Below are positions 12,623 through 18,155 of a stretch of DNA of 64,000 nucleotides, in pieces. Where the stretch lies: the NCBI RefSeq assembly GCF_002355415.1, contig NZ_AP014936.1:2418001-2482000 (forward strand), written 5' to 3'. A program made the position numbers and the translations under genes. Source of the DNA: Sulfurifustis variabilis. GTDB taxonomy: Bacteria; Pseudomonadota; Gammaproteobacteria; Acidiferrobacterales; Sulfurifustaceae. Below the pieces are notes generated by a model. That model made no database searches. It was not told where the DNA came from and saw only the letters and a list, made by a program, of their open reading frames with translations. How positions within the stretch are numbered: the stretch's first letter is position 1; every line of letters starts with the position of its first letter.

Positions 12623-13414
12623 ATGAGGATCCTCGACGCCGGATTCGACCTGGAGCGATTCTTCGCCGACCTCGCCCGCTCTCCCCATCCCGCATTGCTC
12701 CTCGACTACGACGGCACGCTCGCGCCGTTTCATGTCGACCCGGCGCGCGCCGCGCCTTACGCGGGCGTTCCGGCGCTGCTCGACCGGATCATGACCGGAC
12801 GCACGCGGCTGATCCTGATCAGCGGCAGGTGGACTCGCGACCTCATCCCCCTTCTGGGCGTGTCGCGCCTGCCCGAGATCTGGGGTTCCCACGGGTTCGA
12901 GCGTCGCTTCGCCGACGGTCGCTACGACATCGCCCGCCCGGACACCGAACCGCTACGCGGGCTGGCCAACGCGGATACCTGGGGCGACGAGCTCCGTCGC
13001 ATGGGCGCGCGTCTCGAGCAGAAACCGGCCTCGCTCGCAGTACACTGGCGGGGGCTCCCTCCGCCGCAGGCGCGCGCGATCGAAGAGAAAGTGCGCGAGA
13101 AATGGATGTCGCGCGTGCGCGCGACCGGCCTCGAACTGCACCCCTTCGACGGCGGACTCGAGCTGCGCGTGCCGGGGCGCGACAAGGGCTACGCCGTGCG
13201 CACGCTGCTGGACGAATCGCCGTCCGACGTGGCGGCCGCCTTTCTCGGCGACGACCTGACCGACGAGGACGCGCTGCGGGCGATCCGGGGGCGCGGGCTC
13301 GGCGTGCTCGTGCGCCCGACCTGGCGGGAAACGGTCGCTCAGGTGTGGCTCCAGCCGCCTGAGGAGCTGCTGGCGTTTCTCGAGCGCTGGGCACAGGTCA
13401 CCGCGCGCCGTTAG
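12623..13414 (+). CDS. otsB: Trehalose-6-phosphate phosphatase
   Basis: A 263-residue HAD-superfamily phosphatase converting trehalose-6-phosphate to trehalose. The nucleophile/acid pair is D28 and D30 in LLLDYDGTLAP. ILISGRWTRDL supplies the second HAD motif, GGLELRVPGRDKGYAV the lysine-bearing third motif, and FLGDDLTDEDALRAI the metal-binding acidic motif. It is 85 bases upstream of otsA on the same strand, so the compatible solute trehalose is made by this pair. A TAGAAT hexamer lies 7 bases before the ATG, which could indicate a very short leader. Confidence 0.93.
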   Translation: MRILDAGFDLERFFADLARSPHPALLLDYDGTLAPFHVDPARAAPYAGVPALLDRIMTGRTRLILISGRWTRDLIPLLGVSRLPEIWGSHGFERRFADGRYDIARPDTEPLRGLANADTWGDELRRMGARLEQKPASLAVHWRGLPPPQARAIEEKVREKWMSRVRATGLELHPFDGGLELRVPGRDKGYAVRTLLDESPSDVAAAFLGDDLTDEDALRAIRGRGLGVLVRPTWRETVAQVWLQPPEELLAFLERWAQVTARR

Positions 13415-13499
13415 GTCGCGCGCGCCCGGCGGCCGTGCAATAATTCCACCCCCTTCAGGCCGAATCGACCGGTCCCGCCCGGTCGTCGAAAGGACTTGC

Positions 13500-14996
13500 A
13501 TGCCGCTCCCAGCACGCAAAGAACGCCTGGTCGTCGTCTCCAACCGTTTGCCATTCATTCTCGCGAAGGGCGAGGACGGAGAGTGGCGGATCACGCCGGG
13601 CGCGGGCGGGCTCGTCACCGCGCTGCTCCCGGTGCTGCGCGATCGCGGCGGTGTCTGGATCGGCTGGCCCGGCGCGCACGCGAACGTGGAAGAGGTCCGC
13701 CACGCCTTCACGTCTTCGGAGGCAGGTTACACGCTCGTCCCCGTCGTGCTGACCCCCGAGGAAGTCCACAAGTTCTATCAGGGCTTTTCGAACGAGATCA
13801 TCTGGCCGCTGTTTCACGACTTGCAGTCGCACTGCAACTTCGACCCCTCTTACTGGCGCGTCTACCAGGAGGTCAACCGCAAGTTCGCGCGGGCCGTGCT
13901 CGACGAAAGCCAGCCGGGGGACTTCATCTGGGTGCACGATTACCAGCTCATCAACGTGGCCGCCGAGCTGCGCGGCCGCGGTGTCAGCTCGCGCATCGGT
14001 TTCTTCCTGCACACGCCTTTCCCTTCGCTCGACATCTATCTGAAGCTGCCCTGGCGCTTCCAGCTCCTGCGGGCGCTCCTCGAGTACGACGTCATCGGCT
14101 TCCAGACCCTGCGCGACCGCCGCAACTTCATCCAGTGCGTCCGCGCCCTGGTGAAGGACGCGGGCATCCACGGCAAGGGCCAGGTGATGCTGGCGCGGAT
14201 GAACGGGCGCGAGGTGCGCCTCGGCGTCTTCCCGATCAGCATCGACTACGACGCCTACGCGCGGGAGGCGGGGAGCCCGGCCATCGCCGAGAAGGGCGCG
14301 CAGCTCCGGCAGCTTCTGCCGAACCGGCAGCTCATCCTCGGCGTCGACCGGCTCGACTACACCAAGGCGATTCCCGACCGGCTCGAGGCCTTCGGCGCGG
14401 CCCTCGCCCGCTATCCCGAGCTGCATCAGCGGGTGACCCTGATCCAGGTGGTGGTCCCCAGCCGCGAGGACATCCCCCGCTACCACGAGCTGCGAACGCG
14501 GATCGAGCAAATCGTGGGACGCATCAACGGCCGGTTCACGCAGCCGGGCGGCTGGGTGCCCATCCACTACGTGTTCCAGAACCTCTCCCGCAAGGAGCTC
14601 ATTGCGTACTACCGGGCGGCGCAAATCGCCCTGGTGACGCCGCTCAAGGACGGCATGAACCTCGTGGCCAAGGAGTACTGCGCCTGCTCGACCGACGAAG
14701 ACTCGGTCCTCATCCTGAGCGAGTTCGCCGGCGCCGCGGCGCAGCTTCAGCACTGGGCGCTGCTGGTCAATCCCTACGACATCGAAGGCACGGCCGAAGC
14801 GATCGTGGCCGCCTTCCGCATGCCGCTCGACGAGCGCCGGTGGCGCATGCGCCGGATGCGACGCTCGATCCGCACCTACGACGTCTTCTGGTGGGTGGAC
14901 GCCTTCCTGCGCGCGGCGATCGAGAAAGATCTGAGCGCCTTCCCGCTCATGGAAGACTACCTGCCTCGCGCCAACCACGAAGTGGGTCTGCGGTGA
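13500..14996 (+). CDS. otsA: Trehalose-6-phosphate synthase
   Basis: A 498-residue family GT20 glycosyltransferase joining UDP-glucose (or another NDP-glucose) and glucose-6-phosphate. Conserved features include VVVSNRLPF at the start, the [10 protein letters not shown] block, [23 protein letters not shown] with the substrate-binding Arg/Asp/Lys, and [28 protein letters not shown] lies 6 bases before the ATG and fixes the start. It is about 25 residues longer than the E. coli enzyme. It lies directly downstream of otsB; the pair supports trehalose-based osmotic or desiccation protection. Confidence 0.95.
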
Positions 14997-15138: not shown

Positions 15139-17139
15139 TTGTCAGACCTGAGTCCCTCACAGAAGGCCGCAATACAGTACGTCAATGGTCCGCTCCTGGT
15201 GCTCGCCGGGGCCGGCAGCGGGAAAACCTCCCTCCTCGTTCACAAGGCCGCCTGGCTGATTCGGGAATACGGGGTTCCGCCCGACGAAATCGGGCTGCTC
15301 GCCTCCTGCGCGCGCGCCGCCCGTTTCATGCGCACGCAGCTCGCCGACCTGATTCACGGCCGCCCCGCCCAGGAAATCTTCATCTCCACCTTTCCGGCCT
15401 TCGGACTCCGGCTCGTGCAGGCCAGTCTGGAGGAATTCGGGCTGCGGCCCGGCTTCTCCGTTTACACGCCCGAGGAGAGCCGTGCTCTGCTGGCGCGCCT
15501 GATGCCCGAGGAGGGCCAAGATACGGCGCATCTCACGCGCGAGATCGAAGCGCATATCGCCCGCTTCAAGCGCGATGCGTATCTCCCGCCCGTGCCCCCG
15601 AGCGCCCACGATGCCCGGGACCGGGCAGCGCGGCTCTATGCGCAGTACGAGGAACGCCTTCAGGCCGCCAATGCCCTCGATCTCGGCGACCTGGCCCTGC
15701 GGCCGCTGCAGCTGCTCGGCCGACGACCGGGCGTCGGTCGGCTCTGGCGCGGCCGGCTGCGCTATCTGCTCGTCGACGAATACGAGGAAACGACCACCGC
15801 GCAGCACCTGCTGACGCGTCGCCTCATCGATGAGGGGGTGCTCCTCACCGCGGCGGGCGACGACGACCAGTGCGTCGGCTCGGCGCGCGGCGCCCGTCCC
15901 GAGAACCTCCTCAGGCTGCGCGAGGAGGTTCCCGCGCTCCGCCATATCCGGCTGGAACAGAACTTCCGCTCGACGGGCCGGGTACTGAAGGCCGCCCACA
16001 GCGTGATTGCGCACAACGGCGCACCCCTCTGCGAGAAACCGCTGTGGTCCGACCGGAGCTACGGCGAGCCGCTCCGCGTATACCGTGCGCCGAGCGAGGA
16101 GCACGAGGCCGAGCGCCTGGTCGCCGCCCTGCTCGCGCACAAGTCCGCGAACGGGACGGAGTTCAGGCACTACGCGATCCTTCTCTGCCACCCCTGCCAG
16201 TCCGGCCCGATCGAGCGGGCGCTTCGCCAGCGCCGCATACCATACTATATGCAGGACGCGCCGGCCTTGTTCGACCAGGTGGAAGTCCGCGACGTCCTGG
16301 CCGGTCTGCGCCTGCTCTGCAATCCGGCCGACGACGAGGCCTTCGTGCGCGTCATCAACACCCCGCGGCGCGAAGTCGACCGTGCCACCCTCGACGAGCT
16401 CGAGCGACACGCGCGCGCGACGGGCACGAACCTGCTGCGCGCGGCGCGCGATCGCGGGCTGGCTTCCCGCCTCGCGCCCGAGCACCTCTCCGCGCTGACG
16501 GCCTTCGTCACCTGGATCGCGGGACTGATCGAGCGCGTCACCGTCGACGATCCGATCGCGCTGGTCCGCGATCTGCTGAACGGACAGCGTTACGAGGAGT
16601 GGCTGCAGGATACGTGCAACGATCGGAAGATCGCCGAGGGACGCATGGAGAATGTGCTCGCGCTGATCGGCATCCTGCAGCGATTCATCCGGCGCCGGCC
16701 CGCTGCCCGTCTGCCCGAGATTTACGAGAAGCTGCGCCACGACGCGGTGCTCGGCCTGGAATCCGAAGAGCCGCCGGGAGACGCCGTCTCCCTCATGACG
16801 CTCGCCGAGGCGAAGGGCACCGAGTTCCGCCACGTCATCATTCCCGGCATGGAGGAAGGTCTCCTGCCGGGCAGCGATGAAGAGTCGATGATCCAGGCGG
16901 ATCGCCGCCTGCTGTACGTCGGCATGACCCGCGCCCGCGACACGCTGAGCTTCACGCTGGCCGAGCGCCGGCGACGGGGCGGCGAAGTGGCGGCCAGGCG
17001 CCCCAGCCGGTTTCTCGCCGAGCTCCCTCAGAGCGAGATCGAGTGGGTGACGGGCGAAAGCGGCCCGGGAGCCGAGGCGAGCCTCGGTCGTGGCGGCGGA
17101 TTGCCGGCGACCCTGCATCCCTTCCGGAGGGACAGCTGA
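15139..17139 (+). CDS. Rep/UvrD-like superfamily 1A helicase, divergent
   Basis: A 666-residue protein that aligns along its length with Rep-type SF1A DNA helicases. Walker A is intact (LAGAGSGKTSLL near residue 22), as are the DE of motif II, QNFRST, and YVGMTRARDTL of motif VI. Other motifs are altered: TFTNKAA is ASCARAA, STFH is STFP, DEYQDT is DEYEET, the QSIYSWRGA of motif III is QCVGSARGA, and the HASKGLEF block is EAKGTEF. ATP binding therefore looks kept while aromatic DNA contacts look lost. The frame opens with TTG at 15139 and no clear ribosome-binding site; no in-frame ATG lies nearby. Confidence 0.8.
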   Translation: MSDLSPSQKAAIQYVNGPLLVLAGAGSGKTSLLVHKAAWLIREYGVPPDEIGLLASCARAARFMRTQLADLIHGRPAQEIFISTFPAFGLRLVQASLEEFGLRPGFSVYTPEESRALLARLMPEEGQDTAHLTREIEAHIARFKRDAYLPPVPPSAHDARDRAARLYAQYEERLQAANALDLGDLALRPLQLLGRRPGVGRLWRGRLRYLLVDEYEETTTAQHLLTRRLIDEGVLLTAAGDDDQCVGSARGARPENLLRLREEVPALRHIRLEQNFRSTGRVLKAAHSVIAHNGAPLCEKPLWSDRSYGEPLRVYRAPSEEHEAERLVAALLAHKSANGTEFRHYAILLCHPCQSGPIERALRQRRIPYYMQDAPALFDQVEVRDVLAGLRLLCNPADDEAFVRVINTPRREVDRATLDELERHARATGTNLLRAARDRGLASRLAPEHLSALTAFVTWIAGLIERVTVDDPIALVRDLLNGQRYEEWLQDTCNDRKIAEGRMENVLALIGILQRFIRRRPAARLPEIYEKLRHDAVLGLESEEPPGDAVSLMTLAEAKGTEFRHVIIPGMEEGLLPGSDEESMIQADRRLLYVGMTRARDTLSFTLAERRRRGGEVAARRPSRFLAELPQSEIEWVTGESGPGAEASLGRGGGLPATLHPFRRDS

Positions 17140-17438
17140 GCGTCCAGGAGCCGCTTTTCGGCTGTCGGGCGGGGTCTCCGGCCGGGTTGCGCGTTCCACC
17201 CTTACGGGCGATCATTGGTTTATGGCTCGCGGGAGGCAGCCCGGCTCGGTCCCGAGGGGACATCGACACCGAGTCCACCGGTAACAGGCCGCGCGTCGAA
17301 GGGGAAATGCTACGCCGCGGCGTCTTCGTTCGTTGACCTCCCCGGCACCATAGACGATCGGACGGTGACGTTCACCGCCCCGCCGGTACCTTCCACCGGC
17401 TGGCCGTGACGCAAAAGCGGAATGCCGAAGAACAAGCG
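17140..17438. other. Intergenic region between the Rep-like gene and the two-TM gene
   Basis: About 300 bases without a supported gene. AGCCG at 17149-17153 and CGGCT at 17159-17163 form a short hairpin just after the helicase stop, with only a T-rich loop and no T-run after it. No promoter with both hexamers was found. A GTG at 17406 could extend the next gene by 11 codons. Confidence 0.5.
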
Positions 17439-18155
17439 ATGAAGGCCAATATCACAACGGGCGCCGATCTCTCGACGCTGCACCTCTCGCCGGAGACCTT
17501 CGAGACCGTGTACCACACGATCGCGGGGTTGCGATTCCCCATGGACGTCGCTCAGGTGCTGGAGCTGCGTTACCTGATCAATCACGGCCTGGACAGCTTT
17601 CCGGAACCCGCCGCGACGCCGGATTACCGCGAGTTCCGCGACGCCCTCCAGGGCGTCATCGACTCCATCGGCATCGAGAACAAGCGCCACGGAGAGCGGC
17701 TGCTCCGCATCCTGGTCATGATGCGGGATCTGCACTACCACTACTCGATCAAGTCGCGCGACGCGGAGGCCTCACTGCGCGCCGACATGGCGACCAACCG
17801 GCGGCAGCGCACCCAGTCGTTGCGATACGGCCTGCTGTTCGTGTCCGGCGCGATCCTCGCCGGCATGTTCTGGCTGGGCCTGCCGGCCGCCGGCTGGCCG
17901 ATCAAGCTGCTCACCGCGGGGCTCGCCATTCTGTCCTGGCTCTATTTCCGCTCGCTCCCCGACCTCGACCGCGAGCTCGGGACGCTGGAGACGCGACTCA
18001 ACGATTTGCGGCGCCGGCGCGTGAAATCGATACACTGGCGGCAACTGGTCCAGAAGCTCGCGCTGGTGCTCGGCTACAAGCACGACAGCAACGTCGAGGT
18101 CTTCCGGATCGATTCGGATTTCGATCTCCCGGGCCGCTCTCGCTTGCATCACTGA
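17439..18155 (+). CDS. Two-TM membrane protein of unknown function
   Basis: A protein of 238 residues with a soluble helical N-terminal part (about 1-125), two adjacent hydrophobic segments near residues 128-165 (LRYGLLFVSGAILAGMFWLG and a second after the PAAGWPIK turn) and a C-terminal helical domain that is rich in charged residues and probably forms a coiled coil (DLDRELGTLETRLNDLRRRR). No family is recognised. The ATG at 17439 is chosen for its spacing to GAAGAA; a GTG at 17406 is an alternative. It is convergent with xerD. Confidence 0.65.
   Translation: MKANITTGADLSTLHLSPETFETVYHTIAGLRFPMDVAQVLELRYLINHGLDSFPEPAATPDYREFRDALQGVIDSIGIENKRHGERLLRILVMMRDLHYHYSIKSRDAEASLRADMATNRRQRTQSLRYGLLFVSGAILAGMFWLGLPAAGWPIKLLTAGLAILSWLYFRSLPDLDRELGTLETRLNDLRRRRVKSIHWRQLVQKLALVLGYKHDSNVEVFRIDSDFDLPGRSRLHH

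Follow-up and report, generated by a model that had tools for sequence, protein, structure and literature searches.

The window analysed here is a stretch of 64,000 nucleotides from the genome of Sulfurifustis variabilis, a sulfur-oxidising bacterium, and the feature of interest within it is a gene for a homologue of the helicase Rep, referred to below as the eroded Rep, whose motifs are collected in Table 1 together with neighbouring genes. In a preliminary sense there are two ways in which such a gene could be illusory, both of which were set aside. It is not a meaningless open reading frame (ORF) in GC-rich DNA, as its codon-position composition (GC of 0.745, 0.481 and 0.849 at the three positions, like that of neighbouring genes) and its homology fix the plus frame. 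Nor does it look like an assembly error, given that the S. variabilis skN76 genome is, according to its report, a single circle of 3,958,814 bp built from 210x PacBio data (PMC5024460), and that UvrD is clean in the same genomes. An antisense ORF of 680 residues also spans the gene (15157-17199, minus strand); such ORFs are common in GC-rich DNA, and this one is taken to be an artefact.

The order of genes around the eroded Rep, as judged using Pfam, is citrate synthase, dacB (a D-Ala-D-Ala carboxypeptidase), rep, a 249-residue ORF (ORF249) and a xer-type recombinase, and this order is common to the loci of the family's canonical Reps. The genes that follow the recombinase are, we take it, ogt, rplS, trmD and rimM. 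A match to ORF249 adjoins rep or its eroded counterpart in nine of the 13 other genomes compared, including that of the more distant relative G002 (none was found beside rep in G029, G006 or G007, while the stretch available from G010 is short), and ORF249 is possibly a functional neighbour of rep. Trehalose genes are found beside rep in G005 also; there was no match to them at that place in the stretches from G004, G008, G011, G012, G013 and G018.

Table 1 Features of the eroded Rep gene and its immediate surroundings (positions are those of the window; residue numbers in substitutions follow E. coli Rep).
Feature	Position	Strand	Remarks
Trehalose genes (trehalose-phosphatase, glycosyltransferase 20)	12623-14996	+	Pfam; between dacB and rep
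Eroded Rep	15139..17139	+	TTG start, 666 residues; ORF list and homology
Walker A	15208..15228	+	GAGSGKT, unchanged; motif alignment
Motif Ia	15301..15321	+	ASCARAA (canonical TFTNKAA); F55S
Motif Ib	15388..15396	+	TFP (canonical TFH); H85P
Motif II	15772..15789	+	VDEYEE; DE pair retained, QD replaced by EE
Motif III	15856..15894	+	GDDDQCVGSARGA; Y248G and W250A; pLDDT <50 at residues 248-251
Motif IV	15958..15975	+	QNFRST; Tyr to Phe, Arg retained
Motif IVa region	16171..16206	+	YAILLCHPCQSG; R350C and N352P
Duplex-contact (GIG-type) motif	16360..16380	+	Gly of REIG replaced by Asp
2B-domain block	16588..16656	+	RYEEWLQDTCNDRKIAEGRMENV; contains best conserved 20-residue stretch of the three most eroded proteins
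Motif V	16798..16827	+	TLAEAKGTEF (canonical TLHASKGLEF)
Motif VI	16915..16938	+	YVGMTRAR, Arg retained
C-terminal tail	17038..17136	+	Lacks the LANLR-type motif of canonical relatives; final 26 residues pLDDT <50
ORF249	17406..18155	+	249 residues, no Pfam family; adjoins the eroded Rep

The protein is collinear with E. coli Rep over nearly its whole length (residues 4-654 on residues 3-658 of 1UAA by phmmer, E 5.5e-142), as the initial annotation had proposed from the letters alone, and the motif changes described there are present in the alignment: motif III reads QCVGSARGA where Rep has QSIYSWRGA, so that Tyr and Trp have become Gly and Ala, ASCARAA stands for TFTNKAA in motif Ia, the His of TFH is Pro, DEYEE stands for DEYQD in motif II and AEAKGTEF takes the place of HASKGLEF. 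The elements reported as surviving, namely Walker A (GAGSGKT), the DE pair and the TRAR of motif VI, are likewise all still there. A further change, that of the duplex-contact Gly to Asp, is shared with the counterparts of this protein in the relatives G008 and G012 and also with that in the mildly eroded G014. Against the Rep equivalog model TIGR01074 (NCBIfam) the eroded Rep scores 586.5 bits, which is below the cut-off of 951; however, this cut-off discriminates poorly, since the canonical Rep of the same genome (see below) also falls below it, with 875.6 bits.

The changes are not evenly spread over the ATP site and the DNA-binding pocket. Twelve positions, from the Q motif, Walker A and B, the Gln of motif III, the Arg of motif IV, the Glu of motif V and the Arg of motif VI, are here assumed to make up the ATP site. 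For the pocket that holds single-stranded DNA (ssDNA), Phe65, His93, Phe196, Tyr261, Phe263, Arg264, Arg362 and Asn364 of Deinococcus UvrD, as listed in the accessible text of PMC3797037, were mapped by motif onto F55 (motif Ia), H85 (Ib), F183 (Id), Y248, W250 and R251 (III), and R350 and N352 (IVa) of Rep. On this basis six of the eight pocket residues have been lost from the eroded Rep as against a change at only one of the 12 ATP-site positions, a Tyr to Phe (Fisher one-sided p = 0.0044), with corresponding figures of 6/8 and 2/12 in each of G008 and G012 (p = 0.015 each) and of 4/8 and 1/12 in each of G005 and G010 (p = 0.058 each), while no pocket excess is seen in G014 (2/8 and 2/12) or G015 (1/8 and 2/12); it should be remembered in reading these values that the groups of rows were picked after the motifs were known. 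For the G008 protein a gap in motif III falls at Y248 in one alignment and at W250 in another, the pocket count being about 6/8 either way. The replacements are mostly small residues, proline or charged residues and are mostly unlike between species, those in the eroded Rep of S. variabilis including Ser for Phe, Pro for His, Gly for Tyr, Ala for Trp and Pro for Asn. In PcrA, mutation of the motif III Trp (W259) to Ala made ssDNA affinity dramatically lower, as stated in the accessible part of PMC3797733. Given that the DNA-contact motifs are eroded and the ATP site is retained, the first half of the suggestion made in the initial annotation, that this is an ATPase with a different job, is plausible at least in the form of an ATP-binding protein with another job; the second half, a role at replication forks, fares less well (see below). 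Hydrolysis of ATP is not the shared retained function, since ATP-site residues are changed in several relatives (E215D in G008, G005 and G010; R602C in G012; D214E in G014 and G015).

How unusual this erosion is can be gauged from an alignment of 46 proteins, from which the seven eroded rows (excluded after their motifs had been inspected) and that of G003 (excluded because the sequence is partly X) were set aside, leaving 38 canonical rows, 33 of Rep and five of UvrD. The eroded Rep differs at 27 of the 113 columns that are invariant across these 38, retaining the other 86, whereas, when each canonical row is left out in turn as a control, 27 of the 38 show no change and the remaining 11 only one to three (of 114 to 116 columns). 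The other eroded proteins change 42 (G012), 38 (G008), 16 (G010), 12 (G014), 11 (G005) and seven (G015) of the 113 columns, and domain-wise identities indicate that no one domain of the eroded Rep has been spared. In a wider comparison, a set of 87 Reps (80 loci from a scan with the canonical Rep of S. variabilis, plus seven loci from six order members) has the pocket intact except for W250F in nine and N352A in one, with one truncated row that lacks R602. Because the 80 scan loci had been selected using the patterns DEYQDTN and KT[RG]VITHK, and are therefore biased for motifs II and I, a sample of 47 Reps from across the class that is free of any such pattern was added, and none of these 47 has a change at any of the seven pocket positions checked. 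This sample came from a profile search that gave matches in 250 of 369 genomes at E 1e-140, the 27 top and 20 lower-scoring Reps being checked and one further Rep dropped as already counted. Within the family, erosion is present in seven of the 18 vertical Reps that could be aligned; there was no Rep match in G001, and the Rep of G003 is partly unreadable. A single-protein scan of named genomes using the eroded Rep itself found no relative, in a collection that may omit near relatives. With 27 of 113 columns changed as against none to three in the controls, and with the pocket intact, or nearly so, in other Reps, the erosion is, as judged from sequence, real, strong, more than chance and confined to the family within the sampled Reps.

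As to its origin, the tree and the locus point the same way. In a maximum-likelihood tree the eroded Reps of S. variabilis, G008 and G012 form a clade (100/100) that lies among the Reps of the family itself; their end branches measure 0.81 to 0.93, the median being 0.17, and they do not group with UvrD (represented here by UvrD rows only, with no row of PcrA). Branches of this length naturally raise the suspicion of long-branch attraction, for which there were grounds in a warning from the tree run and in the odd letter make-up of the S. variabilis sequence. It was set aside as the cause of the grouping: in quick trees the S. variabilis protein alone, or those of G008 and G012 alone, still place beside G005 and G010, and the UvrD tree, in which the same three species form a clade (100/100), agrees. 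This placement, together with the shared locus, identifies the eroded Rep, at the level of sequence and gene order, as the family's vertically inherited Rep.

Elsewhere in the S. variabilis genome there are one canonical UvrD and one second Rep with canonical motifs, which answers in the affirmative a question raised in the initial annotation; the vertical identity of the eroded Rep, the probable acquisition of the second one and the recurrence of erosion in relatives did not figure there. Among the 20 genomes of the family a second Rep is found in three, exactly those with the most eroded old Rep (S. variabilis, G008 and G012, the latter two belonging to genus g9). The second Rep is nested in a clade otherwise made up of betaproteobacterial rows (SH-aLRT 100), and a scan with it returned mostly betaproteobacterial proteins as its best kin. 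Its neighbourhood differs among the three genomes, so that a single acquisition is not proven. UvrD in the same genomes sits on far shorter end branches (0.12 to 0.20), and its motifs are intact in those rows that cover them, except that one variant of motif V has Tyr for Phe; the old Rep thus evolves several times faster than UvrD in the three species. The four order-level genomes G021, G025, G034 and G038, from assemblies that are 70 to 92% complete, each gave a single match at the level of UvrD and none at that of Rep, which may have been lost in families f3 and f7.

The account that we consider moderately probable is that the eroded Rep is a pseudo-helicase left after the displacement of Rep by the second Rep, with a present job that we infer as follows. 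The second Rep would have been gained horizontally, at or close to the common ancestor of the three species, and would have taken over the original Rep job. The eroded Rep would still be able to bind, and perhaps to hydrolyse, ATP, and would be unable to grip or walk along ssDNA, for which reason it would no longer unwind DNA. It would have been kept for its fold, its nucleotide pocket and its 2B domain, and its remaining function would most likely be protein binding. Displacement as the sole cause is weakened by the milder erosion seen in G005, G010, G014 and G015, where no second Rep was found in assemblies that are 89%, 78%, 95% and 87% complete respectively, and since G005 and G010 share several of the losses, the weakening of the hold on DNA may predate the arrival of the second Rep.

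An alternative, which we regard as rather unlikely, is slow decay, whereby the protein became functionless after displacement and is heading towards a pseudogene, its intact frame being a remnant. It is certainly true that the losses are widespread, vary from species to species and reach catalytic residues (E215 in G008, R602 in G012), and that for the pair G008-G012 the dN of the eroded Rep (0.44) exceeds that of the second Rep (0.15) by a factor of 3.0 and that of UvrD (0.13) by a factor of 3.5. However, there is no stop codon or frame break in any of the three long-diverged copies, whereas simulated neutral decay to 48% identity, starting from the canonical rep gene of the relative G018 with 60 runs per equilibrium GC, led to mean numbers of stops between 6 and 12, according to the value chosen for that GC. 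The fewest stops in any single run were one at GC 0.80, four at 0.70 and six at 0.62, and the argument does not exclude a recent loss of function. In addition, the dN of 0.44 is below every estimate of dS for the same pair (0.97 for the second Rep, 1.8 for UvrD and 4.2 for the eroded Rep, all of them partly saturated), so that, on the evidence of this pair, sequence constraint on the eroded Rep is relaxed about three- to three-and-a-half-fold and not gone. Also telling against decay are the 86 invariant positions that remain and the pattern of conservation among the three eroded proteins, in which the two 20-residue stretches of highest identity lie in the 2B block (residues 481-500, 0.75, as compared with 0.35 in a canonical trio) and in the P-loop region (residues 21-40, 0.70). 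A final point of the same kind is that the predicted fold is confident: the AlphaFold2 model has a mean pLDDT of 84.7, E. coli Rep (1UAA, TMq 0.83) has the best E-value among its PDB matches, and DNA-bound UvrD chains superpose on it slightly better (TMq up to 0.88), consistent with the protein keeping the SF1A fold of Rep in the model. With its frame intact, its codon structure normal and this fold predicted confidently, the eroded Rep seems to have been retained as a gene. The three most eroded proteins also have in common 16 residues that are absent from 13 other family Reps, as compared with eight and four in control trios (set against 10 other Reps), which is suggestive only of a new surface common to the three.

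If the job of the displaced protein is to bind another protein, one could imagine that the eroded Rep pairs through its conserved 2B domain with the second Rep or with UvrD as a non-translocating partner, an ATP-gated on/off switch. Such a role is attractive because in the family of M. tuberculosis UvrD1 the 2B domains mediate dimerisation and activation, and wild-type UvrD paired with an ATPase-deficient subunit gives an inactive heterodimer, according to the accessible text of PMC13238157. In that system 2B serves as a regulatory module for contacts between proteins, as it would here, but for the eroded Rep the pairing is a candidate by analogy only, and this specific proposal we hold to be improbable. 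If it were true, a displaced core-replication enzyme would have been turned into a regulator of its replacement.

It is improbable that the eroded Rep is instead an active motor with an altered nucleic-acid contact, acting for instance on RNA or on some other DNA structure. The near-complete identity of its ATP site, where 11 of the 12 positions are unchanged and the twelfth is Tyr to Phe, speaks for such a motor. Against it stand the mostly small, proline or charged character of the pocket replacements and the fact that these mostly differ between species, and the motif III loop (residues 248-251) is the sole stretch of at least three residues with pLDDT <50 outside the C-terminal tail; moreover, a catalytic residue is changed in each of the G008 and G012 counterparts. 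Least probable of all, indeed very improbable, is a structural role at forks, as put forward in the initial annotation, or a regulatory one there: E. coli Rep does work at the replication fork, to which it is brought by PriC and by DnaB, the partner of its 33 C-terminal residues, as described in PMC6614839, but these known recruitment routes are missing, the LANLR-type tail motif (probably the DnaB contact) having gone from the three most eroded proteins while being kept in the second Reps and in the eight other family tails compared, and PriC (Pfam PF07445) being found in none of the 20 genomes of the family (f1), many of them incomplete, using a search that does find E. coli PriC.

Returning to the displaced pseudo-helicase, its closest known counterpart is Rep itself (E. 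coli 1UAA; TIGR01074), which it resembles in lineage (by tree and locus), in its four-domain SF1A fold, in its ATP-site residues and in collinearity over the whole length, and from which it differs in lacking the ssDNA pocket, the duplex-contact Gly and the C-terminal motif, and in its score below the TIGR01074 cut-off. RecC and AddB are inactivated helicase-fold partners in RecBCD and AddAB, where a UvrD-type fold has similarly persisted beside an active relative after loss of the motor, and AddB chains are indeed weak fold matches of the model; unlike the eroded Rep, for which no partner or nuclease is evident, they are fixed subunits of nuclease complexes. The eukaryotic Utp25 also has a helicase fold and is called a pseudohelicase (PMC9539457), but is kin to RNA helicases and belongs to ribosome assembly. 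The eroded Rep is therefore best classed as a Rep-derived variant within the known pseudo-helicase kind; among the top matches in the open-access literature no report of a pseudo-helicase derived from a displaced Rep was found. What it offers is an apparent natural case in which a replication helicase was displaced by a foreign copy and the original kept, without its grip, in three species, with sister lineages that show milder stages of erosion. Such naturally graded variants set the binding of ATP by Rep apart from its hold on DNA, and the system would test whether a helicase can become a regulator. As a minor observation, the relatives G014 and G015 of genus g5 (loci L015 and L017) have Glu for the Walker B Asp (VEEFQE) in the sole Rep found in each assembly.
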